Positions 16,389 to 25,873 of a DNA stretch of 64,000 nt are shown here, piece by piece. The translations under genes and the position numbers were made by a program. Origin of the DNA: Microbacterium sp. VKM Ac-2870 (GTDB lineage: Bacteria > Actinomycetota > Actinomycetes > Actinomycetales > Microbacteriaceae); the NCBI RefSeq assembly GCF_015350795.1, contig NZ_JADKSH010000001.1:558461-622460 (forward strand), read 5' to 3'. Every line of letters starts with the position of its first letter. The first letter of the stretch is position 1. The notes below the pieces were generated by a model. The model worked only from the letters and a program-made list of their open reading frames with translations. It was not told the DNA's origin and did no database searches.

Positions 16389-18308
16389 CTATCGATTCGC
16401 CAGGCGCTGCTCGATCGCGGTGGCGAGCTTGGGACCGATGCCCGGGAGCGCAGTCATCTCGTCGGCGGTCGCTGCGCTGAGGGCGGTGACGGAGCCGAAA
16501 TGCCGCAACAGCGCCTTGATCCGCGCATCCCCCAGTCCCGGAACCTCGCTGAGCACGCTCGAGATATCGCGACGACGGCGCTTGCGTTGGTGCGTAATCG
16601 CGAATCGGTGCGCTTCGTCGCGCAGCCGCTGCAGCAGGTAGAGCGCCTCGGAGGTGCGCGGGAGGATCACCGGATACTCCTCACCGGGCAGCCAGATCTC
16701 TTCCAGCCGCTTCGCGATTCCGCAGAGCGCGATCTCTGTGTGACCGGCATCCTCGAGGGCGCGTGCCGCCGCGGCGACCTGAGGGGCGCCACCGTCGACG
16801 ACGAGCAGCTGCGGGCGGTAGGCGAACCGCGGTCGCTTGCGGTCGGTCACGACCGGAGCATCGGGATCGGAATCCGCCGTCACGGCGGCCTCAGCGGCGT
16901 CCGCGTCGGATGCCGCGTCGTCGCGGTCGACGTGGGCGAGCCGGCGGGTCAAGACCTGATAGAGCGAGTCGGTGTCATCCGTGGTCTCGGGAACGCCGAA
17001 CGAACGGTACTGATCCTTGCGCGGCAAGCCGTCTTCGAAGACCACCATCGACGCGACGACGTTGGTACCCGACAGATGCGAGACGTCGTAGCACTCGATG
17101 CGCAGCGGCGCCTCGTCCATCCCGAGGGCGATTCGAAGGTCCGTGAGCGCCTTGGTGCGGGCGGTGTAGTCGGAGGTACGGCGGGTCTTGTGGAGCAAGA
17201 GCGCCTGCTGCGCATTGAGGGTCGCAGTGCGCAGTAGGTCGGCCTTCCGACCTCGCTGGGCGACTTGAAGGGTGACGCTCTTGCCGCGGCGTTCCTGGAG
17301 CCACTGCTCCAGATCGGCGGCATCGTCGGGCAGCGTCGGAACGAGCACTTGACGGGGGATCTCCCCCGCGGCGGCCGCACCGTAGGTGCGCTGGATCACC
17401 TGATCGACGAGGTCGGCACCGGAGATGTCGAGTTCTTTGTCGATCGTCGTCGCCCGCACACCGCGCACGCGACCGCCGCGCACAACGAAGTGCTGCACGG
17501 CCGCCGACAGTTCGTCCTCGGCGATACCGAAGAGGTCGGCGTCGGTGTCTTCGGCGAGCACGAGCGAGCTGCGGCTGAGCACCGCGTCGATGGCTTGCAG
17601 TCGATCGCGGTACAGGGCCGCGGACTCGTAATCCATCGCCGCGGACGCTTCGCGCATGCGCTTGGTGAGGTCGCGGGCGAAACGCTGGTCTCCGCCGGCC
17701 ATGAAAGCGACGAAGTCGTCGACGATCGCGCGGTGCTCTTCGATGGTCACCTTCATCGAGCACGGACCGCCGCACCGCCCGATCTGGCCAGGGAAGCACG
17801 GCCGACCCGACGCCATCGCCTTCTTGTAAGACGCATCGGAGCAAGTGCGGATCGGGAACACCTTGATCATCAGATCGATGGTGTCGTGCACCGCCCACAC
17901 CTTGGGATAGGGCCCGAAGTAGCGGGCACCGGGAATGCGCCGGTTGCGGGTCACGATCACCCGCGGAGCCTCATCGGCCAGGGTGATCGCCATGTACGGA
18001 TACGACTTGTCGTCCTTGTATCGCACGTTGAATGGCGGCGAGAATTCCTGGATCCACATGTACTCCAGCTGCAGTGACTCCACATCGCTGCCAACGACGG
18101 TCCATTCGACGGATGCCGCGGTCAGCACCATCCGCCGAGTGCGTTCGTGCAGCGTGTGCAGCGGCGCGAAGTAATTCGACAGGCGCGCGCGAAGGTTCTT
18201 CGCTTTGCCCACGTAGAGCACACGACCGTCCGCATCACGGAAGCGGTACACGCCGGGCTGGGTCGGAATCTCACCCGGCCGCGGCTTGTACGGGAGCGCG
18301 TCGGCCAT
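16389..18308 (-). CDS. uvrC: UvrABC excinuclease subunit C
   Basis: Makes the two incisions in nucleotide excision repair. It has 639 residues. The N-terminal GIY-YIG nuclease shows [22 protein letters not shown] from about residue 15, a UVR motif near residues 205-240 binds UvrB, the RNase H-like endonuclease domain includes the VVDGGAPQV segment, and a helix-hairpin-helix pair closes the protein ([22 protein letters not shown]). The ATG at 18308 overlaps the end of uvrA by proximity (one base after its stop), so the two genes form one unit. Confidence 0.96.
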
Positions 18309-18309
18309 C

Positions 18310-21228
<2,919 letters not shown>

Positions 21229-21234
21229 CGCACA

Positions 21235-21240
21235 AGTCTA
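21235..21240 (-). promoter_or_regulatory. -10 box, leaderless uvrA
   Basis: TAGACT on the minus strand with six bases to the GTG places the expected transcription start on the start codon. Confidence 0.6.
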
Positions 21241-21297
21241 GGTGTGGCCTCAGACACCGGATCCGACGTGCGCTCTCGGCGTAGCGCGAGGCGCCGA

Positions 21298-21735
21298 TCA
21301 GTCCGCGCGTCGACCAGCGAACGGCGCCAGCGCATCGCGAAGCCCGGCGAGCTCGGCGGCATCCATCCCCACGCGCGCCATGATCTGTTCGGGCACGGGC
21401 AGCGCCAATGTTCGCAGCGCCCGACCGTCGGCTGTCAGGGCGATCTCGAGCACCCGTTCATCGTCGGCCCGTCGGCCGCGCGAGACGCGGCCCTGCGACT
21501 CCAGGCGTTTGACCAGCGGGGACAGGGTGGCCGGCTCCATCGCCAGCTCTTCGGCCAGATCACCCAGCGACCGCGGCGACTGCTCCCAGAGTGCGAGCAT
21601 CACGAGGTACTGCGGATGCGTGAGTCCAAGCGGCTCGAGCACCGGCCGGTAGATGGAGACCACATTGCGCGCCGCCGTCACCAGCGCGAAGCACAGCTGA
21701 TTCTCGAGCTTCAACAGATCGTCGCGGGCATCCAC
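21298..21735 (-). CDS. MarR/OhrR-like redox-sensing transcriptional regulator
   Basis: A 145-residue winged-helix repressor. The N-terminus ENQLCFAL places a cysteine at residue 15, the position of the peroxide-sensing Cys in OhrR proteins, and the LGLTHPQYLVMLALWE and LSPLVKRLE helices fit OhrR well. The wing contains RADDERVLEI. The start is GTG at 21735, leaderless by its TAGGAT box. It faces a zinc-ribbon gene across 33 bases that hold a perfect ATTAGT/ACTAAT palindrome. No ohr peroxidase gene is adjacent, which is unusual. The ligand is inferred from Cys15, not shown. Confidence 0.88.
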   Translation of the reverse strand: MDARDDLLKLENQLCFALVTAARNVVSIYRPVLEPLGLTHPQYLVMLALWEQSPRSLGDLAEELAMEPATLSPLVKRLESQGRVSRGRRADDERVLEIALTADGRALRTLALPVPEQIMARVGMDAAELAGLRDALAPFAGRRAD

Positions 21736-21741
21736 CCTGCC

Positions 21742-21747
21742 ATCCTA
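21742..21747 (-). promoter_or_regulatory. -10 box, leaderless MarR/OhrR-like gene
   Basis: TAGGAT on the minus strand ends six bases before the GTG at 21735. It lies next to the palindromic operator, so the regulator probably represses itself. Confidence 0.6.
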
Positions 21748-21752
21748 GACCA

Positions 21753-21770
21753 ATTAGTTAGTACACTAAT
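21753..21770. promoter_or_regulatory. Probable MarR-family operator
   Basis: ATTAGT-TAGTAC-ACTAAT is a perfect 6-bp inverted repeat with a six-base spacer, the size and AT-richness expected of MarR-family operators and conspicuous in this GC-rich DNA. It covers the -10 box of the divergent zinc-ribbon gene (TACACT, 21762-21767) and abuts that of the regulator, so one bound dimer would block both. Confidence 0.75.
21762..21767 (+). promoter_or_regulatory. -10 box, leaderless zinc-ribbon gene
   Basis: TACACT on the plus strand ends seven bases before the ATG at 21775 and lies inside the MarR-type palindrome. Confidence 0.55.
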
Positions 21771-21774
21771 GGTC

Positions 21775-22011
21775 ATGACACGAAAAGAACCGGAACGCCC
21801 ACCGCTCCGCGAGCGGGTGCGCGAGGCGGGAGGCTGGTACACCTACCTCAACACGCGACTGATCCGGTTCGCCGGTCCGGCATCGGTCGGCCCCTACGAC
21901 GTCGAACCCGAGCCCGAGCGCGCCGAGCGCGCCTGCCCGCTGTGCGGCGCCGCCATGTCGGCGCACACGTTCGACCGCAGCGGCCCGAAGCCGCTCATGC
22001 ACTGCCCCTGA
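21775..22011 (+). CDS. Small zinc-ribbon-like protein
   Basis: A 78-residue protein. Residues 1-50 are charged and Pro/Arg-rich with one aromatic patch (GGWYTYLNTRLIRF). The C-terminus has CPLC at 54-57 and HC at 76-77, a possible zinc site. The ATG at 21775 fits a leaderless start; an in-frame ATG at 21769 lies inside the operator. No function is known to me. Its promoter lies under the OhrR-like operator, so it may be the regulator's main target. An alternative view is that it is only a divergent bystander. Confidence 0.75.
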   Translation: MTRKEPERPPLRERVREAGGWYTYLNTRLIRFAGPASVGPYDVEPEPERAERACPLCGAAMSAHTFDRSGPKPLMHCP

Positions 22012-22034
22012 GAGAGCCCTGCCCCGGAGAGATC

Positions 22035-23645
22035 TCAGCGGTCGGATGCCGGCGGGGTCGCGTTCTGGTCGCGACGACGCTGCAGGGCCCACTCGACCTC
22101 ATCGGGATCGCTGTGCGGCACGATCACTCCATCGCGCATGATCTGGTGGCGCTCGTCGCCCTTTCCGACGATCGCGAGGAGGTCGCCTTCCCCCGCCAGC
22201 TCGACGGCCTTGTGGATCGCTTCGGCACGTCCGCCCACATCGAACACCTCCGCGCGCGATCCGCGGGTTCCGCGCACCACGGCGCGGCGAATCGTCGCGG
22301 GATCCTCGTCGGCCGGGTTGTCGTCGGTCACGATGACGATGTCCGACGCCATCGCGGCGAAGCGTCCCATGAGCGGACGCTTGTGGACGTCGCGGTTTCC
22401 GTTGGAGCCGATCACCGTGATGATCCGCCCCGGCGTCAGCGGACGCAGCGCGCACAGCAGGGCGTTGATGGCCTCCGGCTTGTGCCCGGCGTCGATGACC
22501 ACCTGGAACTCGGCATCCACGGGCACGAACTGCACCCGGCCCTCGACGCCCGTGAACGCGGCGATGCCCTCGACTGAAGCGTCCAACGGGTGACCGACCA
22601 GATCGAGCGCGGCGACGGCGGCGAGGATGTTGCTGACGTTGAACTCGCCGACGATCGGTGTCGTGAAACGCGCGGTCTGACCGTCAGGTCCGACGACGGT
22701 GAACGAGGATCCCTTGAGACCGAGCTCGATGTCGACGGCACGCCAGTCGGCCGGGCGCCCCGTCACCGAGAACGACTGGGTCTGCAGCTCGGGGTCGGCG
22801 TGCAGACGACGCCCCGCGCCGTCGTCGATGTTGACGAGGCCGATGCCCGACATCGTGCTCGTCAACAGCTCGCGCTTGGCGAGGAAGTAGGCCTCCTGCG
22901 TGCCGTGGAAGTCGCGGTGATCGTGCCCCAGGTTGAGGAACACACCGACGTCGAAGCGGAGGCCGTCGACGCGATTCATCGTGATCGCGTGACTGGACAC
23001 CTCTGAGGAGACGACCTCGACGCCGCGTTCGCGCATGAGGGCGAGGAGGGCGTGCATCTGCGGCGCCTCGGGCGTGGTGAGGGTCGACGGCACAGCGACA
23101 CCGTCGATGCGCGTGCCCATCGAGCCGATGACGCCGCTGCGGATCGACCGCCGGGCGGCGTCGACCAGGTACGTCGTCGACGTCTTGCCCTGCGTGCCCG
23201 TGATGCCGATGGTCTTGAGGGACTCGGCGGGCCGGCCGTAGAACCATGCCGCGAGCGATCCGAGGAAGCGACGAGGGTGCTGGTCGACGACGATGCGCGG
23301 CAGCGAGGCGACGTCGGATGCCCCGTCGATGAGAGCGGCGCCGGCTTCATCCGTGAGCACCGCGGCCGCCCCCGCAGCCACGGCGGCCACGACGAAATTC
23401 GCACCGTGCGTGCGTGCGCCGGGCTGGGCGAAGAACAGGTCGCCGGGTTGGGTCATCGCTGTGCTGAGCGCGATGCCGGTCACGCTCGTCGAACCGTGCA
23501 CGCGGGCACCGGGGATATGCGCCGCGATCTCCTCGAGGGTGCGGGGGGTCACGAGGCGGGGACGATTGCCCGCCTCGACGGCGGCAGCGGACTCTCCCGC
23601 CGCGGCATCCGACTCATCCGACACGGCAAAATCCTCGATACTCAC
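22035..23645 (-). CDS. murE: MurE-family UDP-MurNAc-peptide ligase
   Basis: An ATP-dependent Mur ligase of 536 residues that would add the third amino acid of the peptidoglycan stem. Domains in order are the MurE N-domain (TGIALSTAMTQPGDLFFA), the ATP-binding centre and the C-domain with RPLMG. Motifs differ from textbook MurE: the P-loop is GTQGKTSTT instead of GTNGKTTT, and DDNPADEDP replaces the DNPR that selects diaminopimelate. DNPA resembles lysine-type enzymes and fits the B-type walls of Microbacteriaceae. The EVSSHA and AKRELL (carbamylated Lys) motifs are kept. It is outside the division cluster, so it may be a paralog. Start GTG, leaderless. Confidence 0.85.
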   Translation of the reverse strand: MSIEDFAVSDESDAAAGESAAAVEAGNRPRLVTPRTLEEIAAHIPGARVHGSTSVTGIALSTAMTQPGDLFFAQPGARTHGANFVVAAVAAGAAAVLTDEAGAALIDGASDVASLPRIVVDQHPRRFLGSLAAWFYGRPAESLKTIGITGTQGKTSTTYLVDAARRSIRSGVIGSMGTRIDGVAVPSTLTTPEAPQMHALLALMRERGVEVVSSEVSSHAITMNRVDGLRFDVGVFLNLGHDHRDFHGTQEAYFLAKRELLTSTMSGIGLVNIDDGAGRRLHADPELQTQSFSVTGRPADWRAVDIELGLKGSSFTVVGPDGQTARFTTPIVGEFNVSNILAAVAALDLVGHPLDASVEGIAAFTGVEGRVQFVPVDAEFQVVIDAGHKPEAINALLCALRPLTPGRIITVIGSNGNRDVHKRPLMGRFAAMASDIVIVTDDNPADEDPATIRRAVVRGTRGSRAEVFDVGGRAEAIHKAVELAGEGDLLAIVGKGDERHQIMRDGVIVPHSDPDEVEWALQRRRDQNATPPASDR

Positions 23646-23651
23646 CCGGCG

Positions 23652-23657
23652 ACGATA
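23652..23657 (-). promoter_or_regulatory. -10 box, leaderless murE
   Basis: TATCGT on the minus strand ends six bases before the GTG at 23645; no ribosome site is visible. Confidence 0.5.
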
Positions 23658-23717
23658 GCAAATCCGACGCGGCGCGCCCGTCGCCCGCGCCGTTCATACG
23701 CCGGGCCGACGGCCGGT

Positions 23718-25787
23718 TCAGGCGTGGCCCGCCCGCTCCATGGCACGCAACTCCTTCTTGAGATCCTGTACCTCGTCACGCAGCCGCCCGGCGAGCTCGA
23801 ACTTCAGTTCCGCCGCGGCCGCCAGCATCTGGTTCGAGAGGTCCTCGATCGTCGATTCCAGCTGCATCGCGCCCTCGGCGGCGATGCCTTCGCGACGCAG
23901 GCGTGGCGTCGGTGAGCCGCCGCGTCCGCTGCTGCCCTTGCGCGCGAGCATCGCCTTGGTGTCAGAGGCTTCGCGTGCGAGCACGTCCGTGATGTCGGCG
24001 ATCTTCTTGCGCAACGGCTGCGGGTCGATGCCGTGTGCGGTGTTATAGGCGATCTGCTTGTCGCGACGCCTCTCGGTCTCGTCGATCGCCGAGCGCATCG
24101 AATCGGTCATGTTGTCCGCGTACATGTGGACCTCGCCCGACACGTTGCGCGCGGCGCGACCGATCGTCTGGATGAGCGAGGTGCCGCTGCGAAGGAACCC
24201 CTCTTTATCGGCGTCGAGGATGGCGACCAGTGACACTTCGGGGAGGTCGAGACCTTCGCGCAGGAGGTTGATGCCGACGAGAACGTCGTAGATGCCTTGG
24301 CGCAGCTCAGTGAGCAGTTCGACGCGCCTCAACGTGTCGACATCGGAGTGCAGGTAGCGCACGCGCACACCGTGCTCGCTGAGGAAGTCAGTGAGCTCTT
24401 CCGCCATCTTCTTCGTGAGCGTGGTGACCAGCACGCGCTCATCGCGTTCGACGCGGATGCGGATCTCCTCCAGCAGATCGTCGATCTGACCCTTGGACGG
24501 TTTGACGACGATCTGGGGGTCGACGAGACCGGTCGGACGGATGATCTGCTCGACGATGCCGTCGGCGATGCCCATCTCGTAGCGCCCGGGTGTCGCCGAC
24601 AGGTAAACGGTCTGACCGATGCGGTTCTTGAACTCGTCGAAGCGAAGCGGACGGTTGTCCAGAGCACTCGGGAGGCGGAAACCGTGGTCGACGAGCGTGC
24701 GTTTGCGCGAAGCATCGCCCTCGTACATGGCCCCGATCTGCGGGACGGTGACGTGCGACTCGTCGATAACCATGAGGAAGTCGTCGGGGAAGAAGTCGAG
24801 GAGGGTGTGCGGGGGCTCACCCGGCGCGCGACCGTCCATGTGGCGCGAGTAGTTCTCGATGCCGGAGCAGAAGCCGAGCTGCTGCAGCATCTCAAGATCG
24901 AATGTCGTGCGCATGCGCAGTCGCTGCGCCTCGAGCAGCTTGCCCTGGCCCTCGAGTTCCTTCAGCCTCTCGGCGAGCTCGGCCTCGATCGTGCCAATGG
25001 CGCGGTGAACGGTGTCCGTACCGGCCACGTAGTGCGAGGCCGGGAAGATCGGGACGCTGTCGAGCTTCTGCACCACGTCGCCGGTGAGCGGGTGCAGCAT
25101 GTACAACGCTTCGATCTCATCACCGAACAGTTCGATACGGACGGCGTACTCCTCGTACACCGGAATGATCTCGATCGTGTCTCCGCGCACGCGGAAGTTG
25201 CCGCGCGAGAAATCGACGTCGTTGCGGTTGTACTGCATCGCGATGAACTTGCGGATCAGAGCGTCGCGGTCGTAACGCTCCCCCACCTGCAAAGCCACCA
25301 TCGCCCGCAAGTACTCCTCCGGCGCACCGAGGCCGTAAATGCACGACACCGTGCTGACCACCACGACGTCGCGCCGGCTGAGCAGTGCGTTCGTGGTGGA
25401 GTGGCGGAGCCGCTCGACTTCTGCGTTCACCGAAGAGTCCTTCTCGATGAACGTGTCCGTCTGCGGAACGTAAGCCTCGGGCTGGTAGTAGTCGTAGTAG
25501 CTCACGAAGTACTCGACCGAGTTGTTCGGCATGAGGTCGCGGAACTCGTTGGCGAGCTGCGCAGCGAGCGTCTTGTTGTGAGCGAGCACGAGCGTCGGGC
25601 GTTGCACCTGCTCGATCAGCCAGGCCGTCGTCGCCGACTTACCGGTTCCGGTCGCACCCAAAAGTACGACGTCGGTCTCACCGGCGTTGATCCGCGCGGC
25701 GAGATCGGCGATGGCCTGCGGCTGGTCGCCACTGGGCACGTACTCGCTGATGACCTCGAACGGCCGAACGGATCTCGTGGTCTGCAT
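23718..25787 (-). CDS. uvrB: UvrABC excinuclease subunit B
   Basis: The damage-verifying helicase of excision repair. It has 689 residues. Helicase motif I is [16 protein letters not shown] near residue 40, the beta-hairpin region has [13 protein letters not shown], motif VI is QTIGRAARN, and a C-terminal UVR domain (about residues 632-668) binds UvrA and UvrC. The ATG at 25787 has GGAGG only one base before it, too close for normal use, but TACGCT ends six bases before the ATG, so a leaderless mRNA explains the start better. Confidence 0.97.
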
Positions 25788-25793
25788 TCCTCC

Positions 25794-25799
25794 AGCGTA
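25794..25799 (-). promoter_or_regulatory. -10 box, leaderless uvrB
   Basis: TACGCT on the minus strand, then GGAGGA and the ATG. The six-base distance predicts transcription starting on the A of ATG. Confidence 0.6.
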
Positions 25800-25873
25800 G
25801 AGTCGGCTTCCGACATTCGGGCCTGCGTTCGCCGACGGCATCCCTCGGCACGACGCCCTGCCGGAAGCCCACG

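Follow-up and report, generated by a model that had tools for sequence, protein, structure and literature searches.

Genes and Features of the Locus

We analyzed a pair of divergent genes in a 64,000-nucleotide stretch of DNA from Microbacterium sp. VKM Ac-2870, the whole of which is referred to here as the window. The gene on the minus strand (positions 21298..21735) starts at a GTG codon and encodes a MarR/OhrR-like regulator of 145 residues. The gene on the plus strand (21775..22011) encodes a 78-residue protein with a putative C-terminal zinc ribbon. Between the two genes lies a conserved operator core, TTAGTACACTAA (TTAGT-N2-ACTAA, 21758..21769), which is recognized by its conservation and which the regulator would be expected to bind. 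Reading of the two frames confirmed the original prediction of a regulator with Cys15 in the context ENQLCFAL and of a divergent gene for a 78-residue protein carrying CPLC and HC near its C-terminus; the expectation of a partner other than ohr also held, in that the locus contains no Ohr gene and the small gene is undescribed. A uvrA gene on the minus strand (18310..21228; named by eye from its sequence) begins 69 bp downstream of the regulator, and the pair as a whole sits within a stretch composed of uvrC, uvrA, the pair, a Mur ligase gene, and uvrB (window 16389–25841; likewise named by eye).

The Regulator

The regulator matches the Pfam MarR model at 47.6 bits (cut-off 24.6), as expected for a MarR winged-helix fold. 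Its best NCBIfam match, at 135.1 bits and below the 200-bit cut-off, is NF052638 (TransRegOhrRVib), whose name suggests a narrow model. A profile search against solved structures places the regulator closest to OhrR chains from Xanthomonas and Bacillus (E values of 1e-42 to 5e-35), the next structure being another MarR protein (5e-28). Structural alignment of an AlphaFold2 model (pLDDT 87.2) likewise puts OhrR and SarZ on top (Z scores of 15.2 to 2pex and 14.7 to 1z91); CouR, MexR, and other MarR proteins fall within 1 Z of OhrR, so that structure does not single OhrR out.

The single cysteine of the regulator, Cys15, is accompanied by Val19, Tyr29, and His40. Tyr29 of OhrR has a role near the sensing cysteine. 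In the structure of Bacillus subtilis OhrR, described by Hong et al. in 2005, Tyr29 and Tyr40 reportedly contact Cys15, and Tyr40 and Tyr19 are said to lie near the cysteine; the open-access literature that we searched yielded no role for Tyr40. Because His40 and Val19 replace OhrR tyrosines, the cysteine of the window regulator may have a lower or altered reactivity, or its pocket may accommodate a ligand, and the exchange of Tyr40 for histidine suggests, from sequence, another reactivity. Among the aligned relatives that share His40, Cys15 and the following phenylalanine are kept in 72 of 72 rows, as is Tyr29, and residue 19 is alanine, serine, valine, or threonine in all 72, compared with tyrosine, histidine, or asparagine in 25 of the 25 other rows.

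These substitutions permit an account in which the regulator is a ligand-binding MarR protein that recognizes a phenolic compound, a quinone, a CoA-thioester, or sulfane sulfur, with Cys15 leftover or structural and the small gene answering a chemical rather than oxidation. A small residue 19 together with His40 could open a pocket beside Cys15, and MarR proteins responsive to other signals are common (PMC4737184, PMC11211675); however, the retention of Cys15 and its phenylalanine in every His40 row would be unexpected if the cysteine had no role, and we consider this account somewhat unlikely.

The genome carries a separate ohrR–ohr pair (ohr at G000:C6), and the OhrR of that pair has the canonical residues (CFAMY...LTYPQY), from which we conclude that the window regulator is not the ohr regulator. 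The description of the protein as an OhrR-like sensor is thus sound to the extent that it is related to OhrR and has the sensing cysteine. Plain OhrR membership was rejected on the grounds of residues 19 and 40, linkage to ohr (which lies elsewhere), an operator unlike the OhrR box, and the NCBIfam cut-off.

The Small Protein

The C-terminus of the small protein contains the pattern C54-x2-C57...H64...C77, and its N-terminal part (GGWY...N..LIR.AGPA.VGPY) is predicted to be helical. In a set of 33 rows, the ligand set C54, C57, H64, and C77 is invariant, as are G19, G20, Y22, N26, A33, G34, P35, A36, V38, G39, and P40, and the putative ribbon, whose ligands are assigned from sequence, is likely to bind zinc. 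A structural model (pLDDT 78.4, pTM 0.33) places helices at residues 11–18 and 21–33, with the ribbon contributing two short strands. Helix 21–33 has little amphipathic character (moment 0.44, mean hydrophobicity 0.05), which makes membrane binding of the small protein a guess.

We sought a known family for the protein and rejected all candidates: no Pfam or NCBIfam model matched above its cut-off and PHROGs contained no family. Among PDB sequences the best E value was 0.86, with no solved relative, and a Foldseek search with the model of pTM 0.33 gave no significant relative (best E value of 4.5). The RGCVC family (NF038206) weakly matches 9 of the 33 members (best E value of 5.6e-4), the window protein not being among these. 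The closest named relative is encoded by Microbacterium hominis (92% identity), and diverged versions adjoin the same regulator in some Microbacterium (L129, L143).

Conservation of the Gene Pair

Using a threshold of E <= 0.001, we matched the small gene in 141 of 149 genomes of the genus. The loci that we compared are the 110 best-scoring matches (the best 30 of 144 places and the best 80 of 139), which repeat some species from two collections and contain 101 distinct upstream regions. The regulator is divergent from the small gene in all 110, every one of which has the cysteine and THPQYL, and it also adjoins the small gene in three weaker loci (L129, L143, L167). The flanking genes vary between loci while the regulator stays beside the small gene.

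No small-gene match was obtained in eight genomes of the genus, of which three are 100% complete and five 68–94% complete. The small gene was sought in these genomes with a single protein query and the regulator with a profile, and by that profile search none of the eight has a regulator of the His40 type: the profile found nothing at E <= 1e-8 in G003 and G033; in G094, G108, and G132 it gave only matches with E values between 6e-11 and 7e-9, none of them starting before profile position 31; and in G016, G091, and G098 its best match was a Tyr40-type OhrR (about 1e-35). For comparison, the genus orthologues of the regulator score 4e-72 to 2e-80.

A profile of the small protein matched 38 of 396 genomes at the level of the order, 20 of them outside the genus, of which 14 belong to other genera of Microbacteriaceae. 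In these other genera, the regulator is divergent in 12 of the 12 loci read, 9 of which have TTAGTNNACTAA between the genes; two genomes of another Microbacteriaceae genus (G391, G476) have neither the small gene nor the regulator. Outside the family, the pair occurs in tandem with the operator between the genes in G493, and two genomes of yet another family (G152, G171) have a small-protein homologue and no close regulator. A homologue also lies between priA-like and fmt-like genes at L176, in a genome that matches the regulator at best with an E value of 1.6e-9. These results show strong conservation of the pair and palindrome across Microbacteriaceae, which the original prediction had named as a check. 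It named as evidence against itself an unconserved pair with the regulator beside other genes, an arrangement that is absent within the genus; outside the family, by contrast, other small genes often adjoin regulators of the same type.

Additional ribbon proteins were observed in other settings. One Microbacterium genome (G032) encodes a small-gene paralogue between uvrA and uvrB (L219, 967–1185) that has no adjoining regulator, the pair itself being elsewhere in that genome. Six loci from other Microbacteriaceae (L207, L208, L209, L210, L213, L216) encode a second ribbon protein with the C-terminal motif L[ND]E[LF]GMP, with no His40 regulator in the stretch; genes that by eye are DhaM-like or encode short-chain dehydrogenases are among the neighbors.

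The position of uvrA on the same strand raises the question of whether the regulator mainly serves that gene, the small gene being secondary. The short distance seen in the window recurs in 56 of the 110 best-scoring loci, in which uvrA lies within 300 bp downstream of the regulator (starts 49–168 bp away; the uvrA counts of 56, 28, and 29 together exceed 110, as uvrA was matched twice in some loci), and read-through from the regulator into uvrA is possible. In the other 54 loci, however, uvrA is farther away or outside the stretch, whereas every one of the 110 keeps the small gene next to the regulator, which leads us to regard service to uvrA as quite improbable. In L007, L008, L010, L017, L039, and L042, a catalase gene faces the regulator in convergent orientation, 22–68 bp from where the regulator match ends; as a linked target it was rejected, since these are 6 of the 110 best-scoring loci and some represent the same species twice. 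We also rejected the possibility that the pair is phage or plasmid cargo: there was no phage record and a single plasmid record, a Microbacterium plasmid on which the small gene is annotated "hypothetical protein," and viral contigs, which were scanned with the regulator only, gave one distant match.

Operator and Promoters

The original prediction placed a perfect palindrome shared by the two genes, ATTAGT-N6-ACTAAT, over the −10 of the small gene. This 18-mer does exist at 21753..21770, is the sole match in the window at up to two mismatches (against an expectation of 0.07, and with a match in 7 of 100 shuffles), and has one exact place in the whole 3.15 Mb genome. The conserved element, however, is the inner TTAGTACACTAA, which is nearly invariant in the 101 distinct genus upstreams while most flanking columns drift, and which is exact in 103 of the 110 best-scoring loci and has one mismatch in the remaining 7. 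The 18-mer is present in 4 of the 101 distinct upstreams, from which its outer arm appears to be largely a local accident, and it was rejected as the functional register of the operator.

Both genes have candidate leaderless promoters. Within the operator, a −10-like hexamer of the TAnnnT form (TACACT, 21762..21767, plus strand) precedes the small gene, whose ATG lies 13 bp after its first T, and a second −10-like hexamer (TAGGAT, 21742..21747, minus strand) precedes the regulator, whose GTG lies 12 bp after its first T. In leaderless actinobacterial genes (PMC3160421), the first T of a TAnnnT −10 lies about 12 bp before the start, and these spacings would accordingly fit leaderless promoters for both genes. 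A simple promoter scan of 21200–22100 found no sigma-70-type site. An in-frame ATG also occurs at 21769, inside the operator; a start codon 5–6 bases past the last operator base (21775 here) is present in 110 of the 110 best-scoring loci. If TAGGAT is the −10 of the regulator, then the operator would also cover the −35 region of that gene. Part of the conservation of TTAGTACACTAA may reflect promoter constraint.

Across the 149 genomes of the genus, exact TTAGTACACTAA occurs in 131 copies in 129 genomes, compared with 8 for a reversed-pattern control, and 129 of the 131 copies lie within 80 bp upstream of a small-gene match, all in its orientation; 12 genomes with a small-gene match have no exact copy. 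A second exact copy is found only in the genome studied here and in G081, in each case about 82 kb from the first, and precedes a 65-residue protein that resembles two membrane helices (L116, 1501–1766, G000:C1:498659; L215, approximately 1012–760, G081). Although homologues of this protein occur in 44 of the 59 genus genomes searched, the restriction of the second site to 2 of 149 genomes led us to reject it as a target in a general regulon.

His40 Relatives across Actinomycete Genera

Relatives of the regulator with either type of residue 40 were found at E <= 1e-38 in 154 of 345 genomes of the class and in 49 of 126 genera. We compared 80 class loci, composed of L229–L248 and 60 hand-picked loci (mostly one or two per genus, E <= 1e-38); L177 and L220–L228, from the same genome and genus as the window, were left out. 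Grouped by residue 40, the set contains 60 His40 and 20 Tyr40 loci, which are related rather than independent, and 7 of the 60 His40 loci are from Microbacteriaceae. An Ohr gene is present in the stretch at 0 of 60 His40 loci and 17 of 20 Tyr40 loci (Fisher p ~1e-14, ignoring relatedness).

The upstream regions also differ between the two groups. Of the 60 His40 regulators, 33 have the pattern TTRGNNNNCYAA in the 130 bp upstream and 27 do not, and none of the 20 Tyr40 regulators has it there; the controls gave 2 of 60 downstream and a mean of 0.1 in shuffles. The stricter TTAGTNNACTAA lies upstream of 16 of the 60. This distribution bears on whether the conservation of the operator reflects a strong promoter element only, with the palindrome not bound by the neighboring regulator. 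TACACT does lie inside the operator, and binding by the regulator is our inference; however, both the TTAGT and the ACTAA arms are nearly invariant, beyond what a −10 needs, and this invariance and the confinement of the upstream pattern to part of the His40 group make an operator that is a promoter alone very improbable.

One of four small uncharacterized proteins is encoded at 44 of the 60 His40 loci and at none of the 20 Tyr40 loci, a comparison in which the four classes were drawn up from the very 80 loci scored. A class was scored anywhere in the stretch (about 1.2–1.5 kb on each side, three stretches being shorter), three classes by tblastn and the ribbon protein by a profile near the regulator. 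By neighbor, the 60 His40 loci comprise 15 with the ribbon protein, 11 with a charged-tail GPA protein, which shares the GPA helix segment, 11 with DUF5313, 7 with an HGPAK protein, a short protein that combines HGPAK or a close variant with a single hydrophobic stretch, and 16 with none. By eye, the DUF5313 and HGPAK proteins look like membrane proteins. On plasmids of two Mycobacteriales, Tsukamurella tyrosinosolvens and Rhodococcus pyridinivorans (L309, L311), a His40 regulator that reads LTHPQYL is followed by DUF5313, and the Tsukamurella locus also adjoins Ku and ATP-dependent DNA ligase genes.

The recurrence of the GPA helix segment in ribbon-less neighbors of regulators of the same type is among the features that would suit a small protein that serves its own regulator as antirepressor or corepressor rather than being a stress effector, in the manner of ArmR acting on MexR. 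Strict pairing within the genus is in keeping with this role, and ArmR is known as a 53-residue antirepressor of a MarR protein (PMC4737184). The homologues without an adjoining regulator (that at L176 and the G032 paralogue between uvrA and uvrB) argue against such a role, which we judge unlikely.

In an unrooted tree of 97 rows and few columns, the His40 rows fall on one side of a single branch (SH-aLRT 94), which is also recovered when columns 19 and 40 are masked (88). In the masked tree, another branch (95) unites the 25 Tyr40 rows with 22 His40 rows, that of the window among them, and the Tyr40 group may therefore be nested within the His40 rows. Whether the His40 rows constitute a clade depends on where the unrooted tree is rooted.

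We conclude that in many actinomycete genera there are His40 relatives of OhrR that lie apart from ohr and adjoin genes for small uncharacterized proteins, a finding that goes beyond the original prediction. That the group represents an undescribed actinomycete-wide branch alongside ohr-linked OhrR that senses another thiol-reactive signal and commands small proteins at few sites per genome, perhaps at the membrane, is a broader proposal for which we see the chances as evenly balanced.

Proposed Mechanism and Significance

The association of 129 of 131 exact operators with the small gene, together with the joint absence of small gene and His40 regulator from eight genomes, gives the system the appearance of being dedicated, nearly single-target, and autoregulated. 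The reading that we favor, and consider rather probable, is a dedicated, autoregulated two-gene switch in which Cys15 is a thiol sensor and the small protein is a zinc-ribbon stress effector. According to this reading, a dimer of the reduced regulator would bind TTAGTACACTAA and, by masking the small gene's −10 together with the regulator's −35 region, silence both. Once an oxidant or electrophile had modified Cys15, with a mixed mycothiol disulfide as the probable end product, the dimer would come off the DNA and the small gene would be switched on as a leaderless transcript. The aromatic N-terminal helix and GPA-VGPY segment of the small protein would probably rest against the membrane or a partner, and the C-terminal C-x2-C...H...C ribbon would bind zinc. 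Operator binding and repression by the regulator are inferred, as is the nature of the inducer, for which a peroxide or an electrophile acting through thiol sensing is proposed. In OhrR, oxidation of Cys15 releases DNA (PMC6034001), and in Corynebacterium the S-mycothiolation of an organic peroxide regulator, one that looks unrelated, is reported (PMC6306002).

We found no description of the pair of regulator and small gene in the open-access literature that we searched, and a widespread stress switch and its target thus appear to be undescribed. OhrR is a textbook thiol sensor that is tied to one enzyme. The His40 group has sequence marks of its own (His40, a small residue 19, and often TTRGNNNNCYAA upstream) that separate it from ohr-linked OhrR and that make it testable how changes beside the sensing cysteine alter what is sensed and which functions the adjoining small proteins have; in Microbacterium, an operator that is nearly single in each genome offers a clean reporter. 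If the broader proposal is correct, then the His40 branch would amount to a stress response by small proteins that has stayed hidden, perhaps one located at the membrane, in which such proteins replace a peroxidase target.

Comparison with Known Systems

The RGCVC family has the pattern CPxCG...H...C. A knuckle of this kind is akin to the ribbon of the small protein. DUF5313 and the other small proteins beside His40 regulators resemble the small protein in being uncharacterized and differ from it in having no zinc ribbon.

The 1-Cys OhrR proteins (B. subtilis 1z91/1z9c, Streptomyces coelicolor) share with the window regulator the MarR fold, Cys15 in LENQLCF, and Tyr29, and a target that is divergent over a shared intergenic operator (PMC6034001). 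The OhrR boxes given in the same source are TACAATTNAATTGTA or GCAACTNAATTGC, whereas the intergenic region of the window has TTAGTACACTAA instead. OhrR has tyrosine at both positions 40 and 19, in contrast to the His40 and Val19 of the window regulator, and the target of OhrR is ohr, in contrast to a small-gene partner in a locus that has no Ohr gene. Some accepted relatives of OhrR likewise have no link to ohr. OspR, EstR, SydR, SarZ, MgrA, and AbfR act on enzymes or on wider regulons. These are OhrR-related or MarR-type redox regulators that share with the window regulator a target other than ohr (OspR–gpx and EstR–estC, together with SydR, in addition to SarZ, MgrA, and AbfR). Compared on the basis of target, the window system is set apart from these regulators by an uncharacterized small protein at a near-single site.
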